From the NCBI RefSeq assembly GCF_000330505.1, contig NW_004191594.1, forward strand, positions 82,845 through 93,320: DNA of 10,476 nt. Reading direction: 5' to 3'. The position numbers and the translations under genes are program-made. Below are positions 2,732-10,476 of the stretch, in pieces (within the stretch, counting starts at the first letter, position 1; the number at the start of each line of letters is the position of its first letter). The stretch comes from Entamoeba invadens IP1. Its lineage: Eukaryota; Evosea; Mastigamoebida; Endamoebidae. The notes under the pieces are model-generated. The model was not told the DNA's origin, did not search any database, and was given only the letters and a program-made list of their open reading frames with translations.

Positions 2732-4966
2732 ATGAACTTTTTAGGTATTGACATCGGCAGCAAACACTCTTTAATTGCTTACACTGTTGCAGACACCTTT
2801 CCAGAAATCGTTCCAAACTGCGTCTCAAGTCCAGTGACGCCATCTTGTGTGATCTATCAACCCGTCACCAAGTCAGTTTATATCGGCGAAGACGCCGTTG
2901 ACAAACAACTGCGATACCCTAAAAACACAACAACCAATTTTACTATGACTCCAACGTTTTCGCAAAACTTGCCTTATTTCTATTATACTTTAATGATTAA
3001 TAATTTACTGAAAGACGTGAAGAGCTACTTAGACGATAAAACAATGAAAATGAATCCAAAAGACACAGTCGTCACTTTAACAGTCCCTTCTGAAATGCCA
3101 GACACTCAGAAGAACTTGTACAAAGACGTTATTCAATCACACTTCGGATTTCAAGACGTTTTAACACTTAACGATATCGAAGCAGCTGCACTCTGTCTTA
3201 AGACTATGCATTCCGTTGAAAAGAAGAATGTGCTGATTGTCGATATTGGAGCACATCATACCACAGCAGCTGTCTTTGCTGTTGGAGAGACTATCGAGTG
3301 CGTGAACAAAGCATCTGCTGTTGTTGGTGGAAACAACTTCGATGAGAAAATCGTTGAGTATGTCAAGAAGTCGATATTAGAGAAGAACCACATCGACTTA
3401 ATGGGTCAAGGCTATGAGAAGACTTTAATTCGCGCTCAGCGTGCTGTTGAGAAGTCTCGAATTTTGTTATCAACGATTCCAGAGTCATACATAGAAGTTG
3501 ATGGAATTAACGACGGTTCTGTCAAAGTGAAAATGTCGAGGGAGCTCTTACAAACCCTAATAGCAGACGATTTGAAAGTCATTGAAAATCTCGTTCAAAA
3601 AGTTGTTCGAAACAAAGACTTAAAGATTGAACAAGTTGAGGTGATAGGAGGCACAGGGAGAGCTCCTTATGTTGTCAACATCATTAAACATGTAGTGGGG
3701 CAGGAGGTCAAGTTTTTGAATTCGATAGATTCAGCGTGTTCTATTGCCTTAGGTGGGGCTATACATGGTGAAAAAGTGTATAAAAAGAAGGAAGAAGATA
3801 CCACTATGAAGTTCTTAAAAACAGTGGAGAAGATGAAAGACATTGAGAAGAAAGAAAGCGATACAAACACTTTAACCAAACCAGAGAAAGTCGAGAACAA
3901 ACAAGACGGTGAGAAGAAAAAAGAAGAACAAGTGACAGAGAAGCCAATGGAGTCAGAAAACAACGCCCCGAGTGTGTTACTCAAAGAAGTTAACGACGCT
4001 GAAATTCAGAATGAAGAGATTTTGAAGCAAGTGAAAGACCCTCAACATCAAAAAGTAGAAGAAAAGCAACAAATTTCATCTCAACTGTCACCTGAAGTCA
4101 TTAAAAACATTTCAGATGAAATGGACAAGGCAACTTCGATTATAGCGGAGCGCGAGAGGAAGATGTGGATATTGAACGACGTCGAGACGAAGATTAATAA
4201 ATACCGGAACTCAATAGCGACGAAAGAAGGGAATATGCCACAAAGTGAAATCACACAATTAAGTTCGACTATTAACAAATTAGAAGAGTGGTTGGATACA
4301 GCAGAGAGTATGGAGAGTGAGCAGTTAGAGAAGGAATATAAAGAGAATATAACACTTCTCGACACCTCAGCGCCGACATTAAAAACGTATTTGGACGCCA
4401 AAGAAGCGACGCAAAAACTTGAGAAAGAGAAAGCCGAGAAAATGCGAGCGGAGCGGGTGAGTACTGGGGAGACTGCAAAGAAGCGCCCGGAGCCAAAGAC
4501 AAACAAAGAGAAGTACGAAGCGTACGAGAAGGCAAAAGAGAAAGGAACAAAAGCGTTTAAAGACACTGATTGGTTGAGTGCCATTCGCATGTATTCTGCT
4601 GCTCTTGGGCATTTAGAAGCGATGTTTGACATGACTCCTACAGACACTGAGAATAACAAGAAAGGGAAATTGGCCTTATATTTGAACTTGGCAATTTGTT
4701 TCATCAAAGTCAGTAAATTCAACAAAGCACTTGACAACGCGGACTCTGCGTTAAAGATCGATGAGAACAATATCAAAGGCTTATTTAGAAAAGGATTAGC
4801 TTTGAATGGGTTAAAGAAGTATGAAGAAGCGCTTGGAGTATTTAAGAAGCTTGAGACGATTGAGAAGTCTGCGTCCACAGAAAGTTGGATCAAAAACATC
4901 GAAGCCAAGTTGAAACAACAAGAAGAAGAGGCGAAAAGAGTCGCTCGGAGAATGTTTGGTAATTAA
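2732..4966 (+). CDS. Hsp110/Hsp70-like ATPase fused to a C-terminal TPR domain
   Basis: This 744-residue, intronless protein is probably a chaperone cofactor. Residues 1-348 are an Hsp70-fold nucleotide-binding domain: phosphate-1 loop GIDIGS (5-10), phosphate-2 region IVDIGAHHTT (169-178), GGNNFDEKIV (199-208) and adenosine loop VIGGTGRAP (304-312). The phosphate-2 region lacks the DLGGGT consensus, a divergence also seen in Hsp110. Residues 349-455 are a charged Lys/Glu linker, and I find no beta-sandwich substrate domain. Residues 456-565 resemble the helical C-terminal part of Hsp110 (NKLEEWLD, then EYKENITLL). Residues 595-712 are three TPR motifs of FKBP51/52 type with carboxylate-clamp positions Lys602, Asn652, Lys682 and Arg686, ending in a basic helix (715-741). 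This predicts binding to EEVD tails of Hsp70 or Hsp90. The ATG at 2732 is needed because the first strand starts at residue 3. The downstream hydrolase gene begins 102 nt after the stop. Substrate and partners are inferred. Confidence 0.9.
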   Translation: MNFLGIDIGSKHSLIAYTVADTFPEIVPNCVSSPVTPSCVIYQPVTKSVYIGEDAVDKQLRYPKNTTTNFTMTPTFSQNLPYFYYTLMINNLLKDVKSYLDDKTMKMNPKDTVVTLTVPSEMPDTQKNLYKDVIQSHFGFQDVLTLNDIEAAALCLKTMHSVEKKNVLIVDIGAHHTTAAVFAVGETIECVNKASAVVGGNNFDEKIVEYVKKSILEKNHIDLMGQGYEKTLIRAQRAVEKSRILLSTIPESYIEVDGINDGSVKVKMSRELLQTLIADDLKVIENLVQKVVRNKDLKIEQVEVIGGTGRAPYVVNIIKHVVGQEVKFLNSIDSACSIALGGAIHGEKVYKKKEEDTTMKFLKTVEKMKDIEKKESDTNTLTKPEKVENKQDGEKKKEEQVTEKPMESENNAPSVLLKEVNDAEIQNEEILKQVKDPQHQKVEEKQQISSQLSPEVIKNISDEMDKATSIIAERERKMWILNDVETKINKYRNSIATKEGNMPQSEITQLSSTINKLEEWLDTAESMESEQLEKEYKENITLLDTSAPTLKTYLDAKEATQKLEKEKAEKMRAERVSTGETAKKRPEPKTNKEKYEAYEKAKEKGTKAFKDTDWLSAIRMYSAALGHLEAMFDMTPTDTENNKKGKLALYLNLAICFIKVSKFNKALDNADSALKIDENNIKGLFRKGLALNGLKKYEEALGVFKKLETIEKSASTESWIKNIEAKLKQQEEEAKRVARRMFGN

Positions 4967-5068: not shown

Positions 5069-5974
5069 ATGTGGTTCGAATGCATCGCCTTTGTCTGTAT
5101 AGGTTATATCATTTACCACGTCATACACTTGTACTTCAACCAACACAAACTGATCTTCTACCCAACACATAATGGGGAGGACTTCCCAACACTCGACTAC
5201 ATCAAAGAACACTCCCACCTCCCTTTCGATTTGAAAGAAGTCAAAATCACGACAGATGATAATAACACCGTTTACCTCTACGCATGCTTACAACAAAACC
5301 CAGAGATACACACAACTATTTTGCTGTTCCAGAGTAATGCCGGATCAGTGTTGGACCGCCTCAGATTGGCTGCAAATTACTATAAGCTGTGCGACGTCAA
5401 TTTTTGTATTGCTGTGTATCGGGGCTTTGACAAAGCAACGGGTATCCCCACAGAACAGTACATGACACAAGACTGTGAACGATACTTTGACGCATTACAA
5501 AGTCTTAATATTGATATGAATAAAGTGGTCGTATTAGGACGTTCAATTGGGGTTTCTATGGCATTGAAATTGTTTAACAAGCGCAAGTGTTACGGCTTGA
5601 TCATCGAAAATGGGTTCACCAGTTTATATGGGATGGCCATCAAATTTTTCCCCTTCTTAAAAAGCCTAAGTTTTGTGGTGAAAGACAAATGGGACAATTT
5701 AGAAGAAATCCAAAGAGTGAATGCAGGAAGTAAGATTTTGATGTTTAGCTCTGGAAGTGACGAGATGGTATCGCCAGAAATGATGGGACAACTCTATCTA
5801 AAAGCAAAAGAAAATGGAAGGCTTGTCCGATTTGAATCGTTTTCTGAAGGTAATCACATGAATTTACCAGAATACCCAAGATACTTTGTTATTGTAACTA
5901 AGTACTTGGAAGACTTGGAAAAGTCTGATGAATGTTTTGACTGTGGAACTTTTGAAAATTGTTTGAACGAGTAA
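5069..5974 (+). CDS. Membrane-anchored Bem46/ABHD13-like alpha/beta hydrolase
   Basis: This 301-residue serine hydrolase resembles the Bem46/ABHD13 family, membrane-bound enzymes of poorly known substrate, probably acting on acyl esters or thioesters. Residues 5-23 form a single hydrophobic N-terminal anchor, followed by the family's FYPT stretch (30-33). The core shows the oxyanion region QSNAGSV (88-94, usually HGNAGN), YRGFDKATGIPTE (117-129, the YRGYG..EG.PSE block), nucleophile elbow GRSIG with Ser159, IIENGFTS (178-185), predicted acid Asp231 in SGSDEMVSPEMM, and predicted base His263 in EGNHMNLPEY. The triad is therefore intact. The second glycine usual after the elbow (GRSLGG) is replaced by Val162, and the oxyanion loop starts with Gln rather than His-Gly. 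The ATG at 5069 opens directly into the anchor. The C-terminus carries three cysteines (residues 289-298). The product likely sits in an internal membrane with the catalytic domain on one face; topology is not determined. Confidence 0.88.
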   Translation: MWFECIAFVCIGYIIYHVIHLYFNQHKLIFYPTHNGEDFPTLDYIKEHSHLPFDLKEVKITTDDNNTVYLYACLQQNPEIHTTILLFQSNAGSVLDRLRLAANYYKLCDVNFCIAVYRGFDKATGIPTEQYMTQDCERYFDALQSLNIDMNKVVVLGRSIGVSMALKLFNKRKCYGLIIENGFTSLYGMAIKFFPFLKSLSFVVKDKWDNLEEIQRVNAGSKILMFSSGSDEMVSPEMMGQLYLKAKENGRLVRFESFSEGNHMNLPEYPRYFVIVTKYLEDLEKSDECFDCGTFENCLNE

Positions 5975-7386: not shown

Positions 7387-7621
7387 TTTGAAAATACTCG
7401 ATCTATAAACAAAGTTGCTCTTCCTTAAAATAGAATTTTTAGACCGCCAGTAATTAAACTATAAATATAGTATAAATGTTTCATTAGAAACTAGATATGA
7501 AAGTCAATTATATTTAATAAGTTAGTTAGCTAAAAATATCAATGGAGTTTTATGGAAGACTGTTTTTTCGAGGCCAAGATGGTTATTGATCAACTGTTCT
7601 TTTGTTTTGTTTCTTAACACC

Positions 7622-7630
7622 GAACTTTGA
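7622..7630 (+). promoter_or_regulatory. Putative GAAC box ahead of the PP2C-like gene
   Basis: GAACTTTGA lies 19 nt before the ATG at 7641, matching the spacing of GAACT boxes at three other genes here. It supports the ATG at 7641, although coding-like sequence further upstream leaves the true 5' end open. Confidence 0.3.
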
Positions 7631-7640
7631 AATTAAGTAT

Positions 7641-9076
7641 ATGTTGCCCAACGTTCATGAAGCCTTTAAGAAGAGGTTTAAGTCTTACATAAAAGCAATA
7701 CCAAAGGCTCAAATAACTCCCATAATCAGAGATGGGTATATTAAATATTTCAACTCCAATCCATTTACAATTACAAGTTGTGAACAAAACTTTGGAATGG
7801 CTTCTTTCAGTACTTACCCAGTCATCAATGGTATTAAACAAGGTGAACCCAACTGTGACTATTCTGGAATATTACAATTACACAATAGTCAAATAACAGC
7901 CATTTGTGATGGGTGTGGATGGGGAAGTGCTTCATGTTTAGCAGCACAAAGTGCTTTGCACGGATTGTGTAAGTGTGTGGAGGACAACATCAGTGGTTGC
8001 AAAACATTGAGAGACGTTGCAACTATTCTTGTTCGGGCAGTTGAATGTGCCCATAATAACGTTTGTTTTCTAATAAATGATATTTCTATTTATGTTACAT
8101 GAAGTACAACAAAAATATCACAACAAAAGGGGGTGTTCTGATTTAGATACAATTTACTAATCTACAGATATTTTCAAATGACAAACAAACAACTGCGACA
8201 ACTACACTTATTTCATCAATAACATTACAATCTGAAGGGAAATTGTATGCACTTGTGATTTCAATTGGCGACTGCCAATCATTTTTATTCAACACAAAGA
8301 CTTCAACGACAACACCAGTGAATGACAAATGGAGTCGGAATATTTGTGAAGTGAATGACTGTGGTGGATGGATTGGGTATTCTGCTAAGGGTGTTCCAAA
8401 TCTAAAAGGATGTTTTTTGAAGCTTTTGGAAGTGAAAGAGGGTGATATTATCCTTTTAATGTCAGATGGCCTCTCAGACAATTTAAACGAGTTTGATCCT
8501 CCACATTCTTCAGTATGTGACTTACTCTCTTCGACCCTCAAAGCTTCAACGTCTCTTGGTAATTTCGTTTATCAGATGACACACTTTGTCATCGAAAAAA
8601 CCAACGAAACTCGAATGTTTCATCAAACCCATACATGTAAGAGGAAAGATACATTAAAAGGTAAATTGGATCATGTCACTTTAATAGCTTCTCGGGTAAA
8701 AGCCTGTTATGAAAATACCCATGATATTAACGAAATAATATCCGAAGAAATCAAAACAATATACCCGTCAAAGTCTGATTTTAAACGACCAAACAGTGTC
8801 TCATATTCTCATGAAAAAATGGAGGACGTACAACGTACATTTTCGAACCCGTCTTCTTCCGAATTCACACACTTCTATCCTTCACTCTCAGAGTCTTCTG
8901 TACTTCCAACACATCTTTGTGTTGGAAGTAATGTCATTTCCATTGAGAAAAAAATGTTTGGCCACTCTGCTGATCCCTCCCCAGACTTCCACAACGTTCA
9001 CATGACAATTACAGAGTCACCATCACCTCTTCCAAGGAAGAAATTCAGAAATTCCTTCATAAACTTATTCCACTAA
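7641..9076 (+). CDS. PP2C/PPM-type phosphatase-like protein, two exons
   Basis: Joining 7641-8060 to 8147-9076 gives 449 residues related to metal-dependent Ser/Thr phosphatases. Recognisable pieces are AICDGCGWGSAS (residues 87-98, the slot of DGHGG), TTATTTLISS followed by ISIGDC (about 155-183), LLMSDGLSDNL (243-253) and KLDHVTLIAS (313-322). Predicted metal-binding Asp90, Asp247 and Asp315 are retained. The histidine of DGHGG is Cys92 and the usual R..MED start motif is not evident, so activity may be altered. The motif style recalls Entamoeba leucine-rich-repeat PP2C proteins, but no repeats precede it here. Residues about 325-449 form a Ser/Pro-rich tail without a recognised domain, ending with basic PRKKFR. 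The two exons are in phase 0. The start is uncertain: the frame is open back to 7590, and a 21-codon ATG frame (7552-7617) overlaps in another register. Much of exon 2 upstream of 8243 lacks an ATG, so it can only be reached by splicing. Confidence 0.8.
8061..8146 (+). other. Spliceosomal intron in the PP2C-like gene
   Basis: The donor is GTTTGT at 8061-8066, the typical Entamoeba 5' splice site, and the acceptor chosen is ATTTAG ending at 8146, giving an 86-nt phase-0 intron with in-frame stops. Splicing joins AHNN to IQFTNLQIFSNDKQ and restores the PP2C core. An alternative acceptor CTACAG ends at 8167, also in phase 0, and would remove seven residues. TAG acceptors are preferred in this genus, hence the choice. 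Confidence 0.7.
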
Positions 9077-9267
9077 AATGACTTAAAAATGTATTTATTG
9101 ATTTTTCCTTTGTTTTACCATTTTACAGTATCAAATATTAGATTTATTTTTACTATATTTTATATTACAGTCCGTTTTTCTTTCAACTAAAAAAGAAAAC
9201 CTCAAAGTATGTTTACTAAATCAATAATAGTAAAAATACCATAAAAATAATTATATGAATTGATAAA

Positions 9268-9275
9268 GAACTTAA
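9268..9275 (+). promoter_or_regulatory. Putative GAAC box of the dehydrogenase gene
   Basis: GAACTTAA starts 22 nt before the ATG at 9290. It sits in a 213-nt A/T-rich spacer after the PP2C stop that has no other recognisable feature apart from T-rich 3' signals. The placement supports the ATG at 9290 over the open but ATG-less frame upstream. Confidence 0.35.
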
Positions 9276-9289
9276 TATTTTATTTGTCA

Positions 9290-10186
9290 ATGTCTTTACT
9301 TGCTGGTGTGCTTATATGCTTGGTGCTTTATATCTTGATAGTCGTCATTTATGCGAAAGGAGTTGGAATGAATTGGCACTATCCAGACCTTCATGGGAAG
9401 ACTGTATGTATATTAGGTGGTACAGCTGGGATAGGGTTAGAGACAGCGAAAAAGATTAAGTCTTTAGGAGCAAATTTGATAATAGTTGGGCGTAACCCGA
9501 GTACTCTTGAGGATGTCACGAATGTTGAAGTGGACTTAAGTGACTTGAAATCCGTTAAAACTGGCGTAGAAAAGTTGGAACATATAGTCGACCATATTGA
9601 CATATTGATAAACAACGCCGGGTGTGTTGTCTTGGAATATGGCCAGAAGACTAAACAAGGGTACGACATCACTGTTGGTGTTAATTATATCGGAACAGCT
9701 TCTTTTGCAATAGGAGTCTCAAGTCTCCTTATGAACGCAAAAGCTCCGCGATTTGTCGTGGTGTCGTCGTTGAACGCGGGAGACTGGCACGAGAAAGAAC
9801 TTCCATTTGACTGGGAAAAAGCACCTGGGGAGGAAGATCCATATATTGTGAGTAAAACTGCCTGTTCACTCTTTGCTGTTGGATATGCTAAAAAGTATCC
9901 AAAAATACAGACAGCACATGTCCACCCTGGGTTTGTGAAAAGTTCATTATGGAGGAATATGACTGGATTTACTAAAGCGTTATATGCAGTCGTATTGTTC
10001 TTGGTTGGGAGAAATTGTTGGGAAGGAGCTCAGACATCATTGTACTGCGCATTGGCACCGAAAATAGTGTCAGGAGAATACTATGCGGACTGCTTGAGAC
10101 AAGAAATTAACGTGCTCTGTCATGATGAAGAGGTCATTGAAAAACTTTGGAAGAAGACGATGGAAGCAATGGAGAAGGTGGATTAA
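9290..10186 (+). CDS. Membrane-anchored short-chain dehydrogenase/reductase (retinol-dehydrogenase-like)
   Basis: This 298-residue SDR probably reduces or oxidises a lipid-like carbonyl or alcohol with NADP(H). Residues 3-23 are one strongly hydrophobic N-terminal segment, so the enzyme is likely anchored in the ER or a related membrane. The Rossmann core shows the glycine motif GGTAGIG (43-49), IIVGRNP (64-70) where Arg68 after the second strand suggests NADP(H), VDLSDL (81-86), NNAG (108-111), catalytic Ser160, YIVSK with Tyr185 and Lys189, and HPG (212-214). The layout fits the RDH11-14/WWOX-like SDR group. A second hydrophobic stretch (229-240) may contact the membrane. The ATG at 9290 was chosen because the open frame upstream to 9251 has no ATG, and a GAAC box lies 22 nt away. 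No intron is needed. The true substrate is unknown; retinoid activity should not be assumed in an amoeba. Confidence 0.9.
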   Translation: MSLLAGVLICLVLYILIVVIYAKGVGMNWHYPDLHGKTVCILGGTAGIGLETAKKIKSLGANLIIVGRNPSTLEDVTNVEVDLSDLKSVKTGVEKLEHIVDHIDILINNAGCVVLEYGQKTKQGYDITVGVNYIGTASFAIGVSSLLMNAKAPRFVVVSSLNAGDWHEKELPFDWEKAPGEEDPYIVSKTACSLFAVGYAKKYPKIQTAHVHPGFVKSSLWRNMTGFTKALYAVVLFLVGRNCWEGAQTSLYCALAPKIVSGEYYADCLRQEINVLCHDEEVIEKLWKKTMEAMEKVD

Positions 10187-10302: not shown

Positions 10303-10476
10303 AACCTTAGCCCAACAAATGTACTTTAGCCCAAAGAAATTCCTATATTTTTCTTTAAAAACACGGGTTTTTACCAAAAAAACAAATATTTGAGAAAAAT
10401 GACTTATATATAGGTATAGTTTATTATTTTAATATAACAATAGAAATAAATTAGTTTTTCTTTGGGCTAAGGTTAA
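10303..10476. repeat. Inverted-repeat element (MITE-like), right end at the window edge
   Basis: AACCTTAGCCCAA at 10303-10315 is perfectly complementary to TTGGGCTAAGGTT at 10462-10474. A second left copy, TTAGCCCAAAGAAA (10326-10339), is complementary to 10457-10470, so the left end holds two related subrepeats 19 nt apart. The interior is A/T-rich, with AAAAACACGGGTTTT at 10357-10371, and codes for nothing visible. With six G/C in a 13-bp arm, chance is very unlikely at this base composition. It is most likely a non-autonomous DNA transposon of at least 172 bp. The window ends two bases after the arm, so no target duplication can be checked. Confidence 0.6.

Follow-up and report, generated by a model that had tools for sequence, protein, structure and literature searches.

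Can an exchange factor of the Hsp110 type and a docking domain for chaperone tails be combined in one natural polypeptide? This question is raised by a gene in a 10,476-nt stretch of the Entamoeba invadens IP1 genome (contig NW_004191594.1, here termed the window). The gene (window 2732-4966, plus strand) is a single open frame of 744 codons without internal stop. Its product, the window protein, consists of a nucleotide-binding domain (NBD) of the Hsp70 superfamily, a charged linker, a helical bundle resembling the alpha part of the substrate-binding domain (SBD-alpha) and a tetratricopeptide repeat (TPR) domain with a carboxylate clamp; the beta-sandwich part (SBD-beta) is missing. Both the order and the missing part had been claimed in an initial annotation and are borne out, since the order recurs in three divergent groups of proteins and no beta-sandwich is predicted between residues 349 and 455. 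Our preferred reading, held tentatively, is that of a pared-down Hsp110-type nucleotide-exchange factor, which would be held to Hsp70 (or Hsp90) by a TPR domain that binds EEVD tails.

Domain order and the missing SBD-beta

The best Pfam HSP70 stretch covers residues 92-359 (profile positions 121-384 of 599); the profile is covered from 1 to 599 by the cytosolic Hsp70 of the same genome and from 1 to 591 by its full-length Hsp110. The window protein has neither the full HSP70 coverage with SBD-beta nor the catalytic Lys71 of a canonical Hsp70. The helical bundle that characterizes Hsp110 and Grp170 is present, as indicated by sequence match to yeast Sse1 and by modeled helices at 454-576. A profile of the family matches the Sse1 chain at positions 5-384 and then at 499-655, skipping the SBD-beta stretch. 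The C-terminal part (residues 576-742) matches FKBP51 (E 9e-18), the closest TPR by sequence among chains of the PDB.

An AlphaFold2 model (19-row alignment, mean predicted local distance difference test score (pLDDT) 78.5, predicted template modeling score 0.57; an earlier 8-row model reached a mean pLDDT of 66.3) comprises the NBD, a long helix at 337-377, an unstructured segment at 374-451 (pLDDT < 50), bundle helices at 454-496, 504-524, 529-546 and 548-576, and the TPR domain at 591-742, with no strand past residue 329. Charged residues (D/E/K/R) make up 44% of residues 349-455, a stretch that, by eye, shrinks to only about 25 residues in the E. histolytica relative P0002. An SBD-beta hidden in the linker was considered and ruled out by the family alignment, the gap in the Sse1 profile match, the charge content and the strand-free model; the window protein is accordingly predicted to lack this domain (Table 1).

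Table 1. Window coordinates of the gene, its domains and the clamp residues
Feature	Residues	Window position	Strand	Basis or remarks
Whole gene		2732..4966	+	744 aa + stop; one full-length place in genome assembly
Hsp70-superfamily NBD	1-350	2732..3781	+	Pfam HSP70; Hsp70/Hsp110 alignment; model; short subdomain IB, altered phosphate loops
Charged, disordered linker at expected SBD-beta site	374-451	3851..4084	+	pLDDT < 50, strand-free; charge content
SBD-alpha-type helical bundle	454-576	4091..4459	+	Family profile matches Sse1 chain at 499-655; modeled helices
FKBP51-type TPR domain	591-742	4502..4957	+	FKBP51 match E 9e-18; modeled helices
Clamp Lys602	602	4535..4537	+	8/8 family members
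Clamp Asn652	652	4685..4687	+	8/8 family members
Clamp Lys682	682	4775..4777	+	8/8 family members
Clamp Arg686	686	4787..4789	+	8/8 family members

The same domain order is found in seven relatives (P0002, P0003, P0004, P0009, P0010, P0011 and P0015). The closest named one, P0002, is an Entamoeba histolytica "chaperone protein dnaK, putative" of 660 aa; it is 66% identical to the window protein over its best local alignment (47% of the query covered) and 65% across the multiple alignment. P0003, the other close relative, is 50% identical to the window protein; P0004, P0009, P0010 and P0011 form one group of 805-823 aa; and P0015 (806 aa) bears the source name "molecular chaperone DnaK (HSP70)/tetratricopeptide (TPR) repeat protein". 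Because it recurs in three divergent groups, the architecture is, judging from these sequences, not a one-off. Each protein search scored only the roughly 8,000 candidates with the most words in common with the query, a scope that does not establish absence elsewhere. Hsp70-like proteins whose precomputed Pfam assignments include no TPR (P0005-P0008) and TPR proteins without HSP70 (P0012-P0014, P0016, P0017) were set aside. In neither of two viral-contig scans nor in one scan of prokaryote genomes did tblastn confirm a relative, a result that does not exclude a bacterial or viral origin. Two of the 11 branches of the TPR tree are starred and the eight family members are not united in it; long branches are flagged in the NBD tree, and a single as well as a repeated origin of the fusion is compatible with the two trees.

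Within the 35-Mb assembly of the same genome (233 contigs) there is one full-length locus, and five further matches (E <= 1e-5) each cover one domain only. That two genes had been read as one is ruled out by the single open frame together with the same fusion in the seven relatives.

The clamp and its possible partners

The residues named by the initial annotation as the clamp of an FKBP51/52-type TPR domain, K602, N652, K682 and R686, align with the FKBP51 clamp and are common to all eight members, which upholds that assignment. The clamp of three-motif TPR domains is described by the pattern K5 N9 - N6 - K2 R6 (PMC2939883), and the window protein conforms to it through these four residues. 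At the fifth position (N9) the three Entamoeba members have threonine (Thr606 of the window protein), like FKBP51, and the remaining five members have Asn. Across TPR positions 591-744, 22 of 154 are invariant in the family, all four clamp residues among them; the chance that four given positions are all invariant is about 3 in 10,000, taking positions as independent and with the eight rows representing only three divergent groups. The same four residues occur in the other five TPR controls (four proteins of the same genome and P0012), so the clamp pattern is, at the level of sequence, a property of the TPR class and not peculiar to the window protein.

Both kinds of EEVD-tailed partner are encoded in the genome: IEEVD ends the Hsp70 in five of the eight loci read (KDEL in the other three), and one Hsp90 ends in MEEVD, the other in KTEL. 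Of the 75 HSP70-family matches in the whole genome, many are incomplete and contain internal stops; alongside them stand intact genes for Hsp70, BiP-like, mitochondrial-type, Hsp110 and Grp170-like proteins.

A proposed tethered exchange factor and the alternatives

The NBD leans to Hsp110, although not decisively. Among PDB chains, Sse1 scores highest against the family profile (200.9 bits; best canonical Hsp70, 178.4 bits). At the 45 columns that canonical Hsp70s (nine rows, including P0005-P0008) conserve and both Hsp110s change, the family agrees with Hsp110 about 2-3 times as often as with Hsp70, a Lhs1-like row being left outside the groups counted. In the NBD tree, from which the Lhs1-like row is omitted (its first part is missing), canonical Hsp70s separate with 100/100 support, although long branches are flagged. 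The "Hsp110-like" label of the initial annotation is therefore favored by the profile match and the column test and falls short of proof. Sse1 is reported to grip Hsp70 by its NBD and alpha-helix bundle, requiring ATP binding but not hydrolysis (PMC4753570), and its K69M variant is still functional in vivo (PMC5440654). Substitutions A280T, N281A, N572Y and E575A are reported to weaken binding to Hsp70 (PMC5440654). Sse1 E575 corresponds to window E485 in 8/8 members and N572 to N482 in 4/8, both being retained in canonical Hsp70 as well. For this correspondence, we take the Sse1 chain to be 18 residues short of the full-length protein before the bundle, and N572 and E575 to be the N and E of KNTLEEY.

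Several observations weigh against an Hsp110-type exchange factor. In the comparison of profiles within the same genome, Hsp70 outscores Hsp110 (259 vs 227), and structure matches do not separate the two, being tied or slightly in favor of DnaK. Neither A280 nor N281 of Sse1 is retained in any of the eight family members, nor in the Hsp110 of the same genome. By alignment count, subdomain IB of the Entamoeba members falls some 36 residues short of that in Hsp70. Alignment with Hsp70 and Hsp110 reveals altered phosphate loops in the window NBD, and ATP binding by the window protein is unproven.

Because the NBD and bundle are kept, and with the Sse1 residues, Lys71, Asp206 and subdomain IB weighed alongside, a tethered exchange factor is tentatively favored. 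We infer binding to Hsp70, exchange activity, EEVD binding and the choice of partner as follows. The NBD and helical bundle would clasp the NBD of Hsp70, opening it and leading to release of ADP, and the TPR domain would keep hold of a tail, either the IEEVD of that same Hsp70 or the MEEVD of Hsp90. Such docking may raise the local concentration and would compete with other TPR co-chaperones. Since the beta-sandwich client site is lost, clients would not be held by the usual groove.

The main rival to the tethered exchange factor places the protein on the Hsp90 side: the TPR domain would sit on the MEEVD tail of Hsp90 as in FKBP51, while NBD and bundle would serve as an adaptor, sensing nucleotide or mimicking Hsp70, to recruit p23 or clients without exchange. 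This is unlikely, although it has some points in its favor, namely the closeness of the TPR domain to FKBP51, which is an Hsp90 co-chaperone (PMC2939883), and an interaction with p23 reported for Toxoplasma gondii DnaK-TPR (Ueno 2011, cited second-hand in PMC5693876); however, the latter protein is likened to the window protein by description only. The IEEVD and MEEVD tails in the genome are compatible with such a scaffold, but the clamp residues alone do not discriminate Hsp70 from Hsp90, and much of the Hsp110 pattern is retained in the NBD and bundle. The two tails would also suit a Hop-like bridge that contacts Hsp70 through NBD and bundle and Hsp90 through the TPR domain simultaneously; two binding faces are predicted in the window protein, and its linker is long and flexible. 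Yet the linker of E. histolytica P0002 is short and ternary binding is without support, which makes a bridge very improbable.

A divergent Hsp70 of canonical type, with the TPR domain added secondarily, would hydrolyze ATP and handle clients via the linker or bundle. The higher profile score of the Hsp70 from the same genome and the top structure match, ATP-bound DnaK, agree with it. Against this stand the absent SBD-beta, the lack in the Entamoeba members (alignment, by eye) of an interdomain linker resembling DVLLLD, the absence of the catalytic Lys71 from these members and from P0015 (4/8, the P0004 group, retain it), the loss of Asp206 in 8/8 (both numbered as in bovine Hsc70), and the split of canonical Hsp70s in the NBD tree, where long branches are flagged; such a protein is improbable.

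The tethered exchange factor can be extended to the whole family, which may represent, rather doubtfully, a separate eukaryotic class of co-chaperones, present in Entamoeba and in two or more further distant lineages: Hsp110-type exchange factors that discarded the client-binding domain and carry an EEVD clamp. If so, exchange and tail docking, otherwise carried out by separate proteins, would be done by one.

Genomic setting and comparison with known systems

Neighboring frames in the window encode an S28 peptidase (2-832) and a HAD hydrolase (1318-1974) on the minus strand, and an alpha/beta hydrolase (5069-5974) and a short-chain dehydrogenase (9260-10186) on the plus strand; no further chaperone family was matched among the window frames scanned. 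Two plus-strand frames at 7602-9076 give one PP2C-like protein when 107 nt at 8061-8167 (GTTTGT...AG), a likely intron, are omitted (32.6 bits for the joined protein, above the PP2C_2 cut-off of 24; 13.2 bits for the first frame alone). At the window end (10303-10474) lies an inverted repeat of 13 nt and 100% complementarity, AACCTTAGCCCAA / TTGGGCTAAGGTT, accompanied by an overlapping 32-nt pair (78% complementary), a possible small mobile element.

A 2022 review places exchange factors and TPR proteins in distinct families of Hsp70 co-chaperones (PMC9346034), and our literature search (titles, abstract openings and partial listings, with few subscription journals) returned neither an Hsp110-TPR protein nor an exchange factor bearing a clamp TPR. 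Whether Hsp110 works solely by forming a complex with Hsp70 or is itself a chaperone for clients too is left open (PMC5440654), and the window protein would help to test this; a natural Hsp110 clasp with an EEVD clamp and no client domain would show which part of Hsp110 suffices.

The window protein resembles Hsp110 (yeast Sse1, human Hsp105) in its NBD and helical bundle, the loss of Asp206 and the best PDB profile match, but differs from it by the lack of SBD-beta, the shortened subdomain IB, the added TPR domain and the unretained A280/N281. With the TPR immunophilins (FKBP51/52, Cyp40) it shares the clamp residues, and with FKBP51 a long first loop and terminal Met-Phe; unlike them, it contains an NBD of the Hsp70 superfamily and lacks an isomerase domain. 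The top Foldseek match of the first (8-row) model, 4j8f, is a fusion of an Hsp70 NBD with the Hip middle domain and likewise combines an NBD and a TPR-type domain in one chain, but it is an artificial construct engineered for crystallization.

The nearest counterpart is T. gondii DnaK-TPR / BSM (TGME49_202020), described as a cytoplasmic protein of 763 aa that has a DnaK and a TPR domain and is raised in bradyzoites; its knockout shows no marked differentiation defect and modestly weaker infection of mice (PMC5693876, PMC12254245). Compared by description only, the two have in common a DnaK/Hsp70 domain followed by a C-terminal TPR domain in one protein of similar length, and the Toxoplasma TPR partly aligns with FKBP38 in a published model. 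In contrast, DnaK-TPR is presented as a chaperone that depends on ATP and is not likened to Hsp110, and the descriptions consulted are silent on SBD-beta and clamp residues. The earlier statement that no widely described chaperone has this domain order thus needs softening: by description the architecture has in part been characterized already. The family would in turn offer a framework for DnaK-TPR, a dormant-stage marker of unsettled role. A protein combining DnaK and TPR is therefore already known; what is added here is the loss of SBD-beta and the reading in terms of Hsp110 and the clamp.
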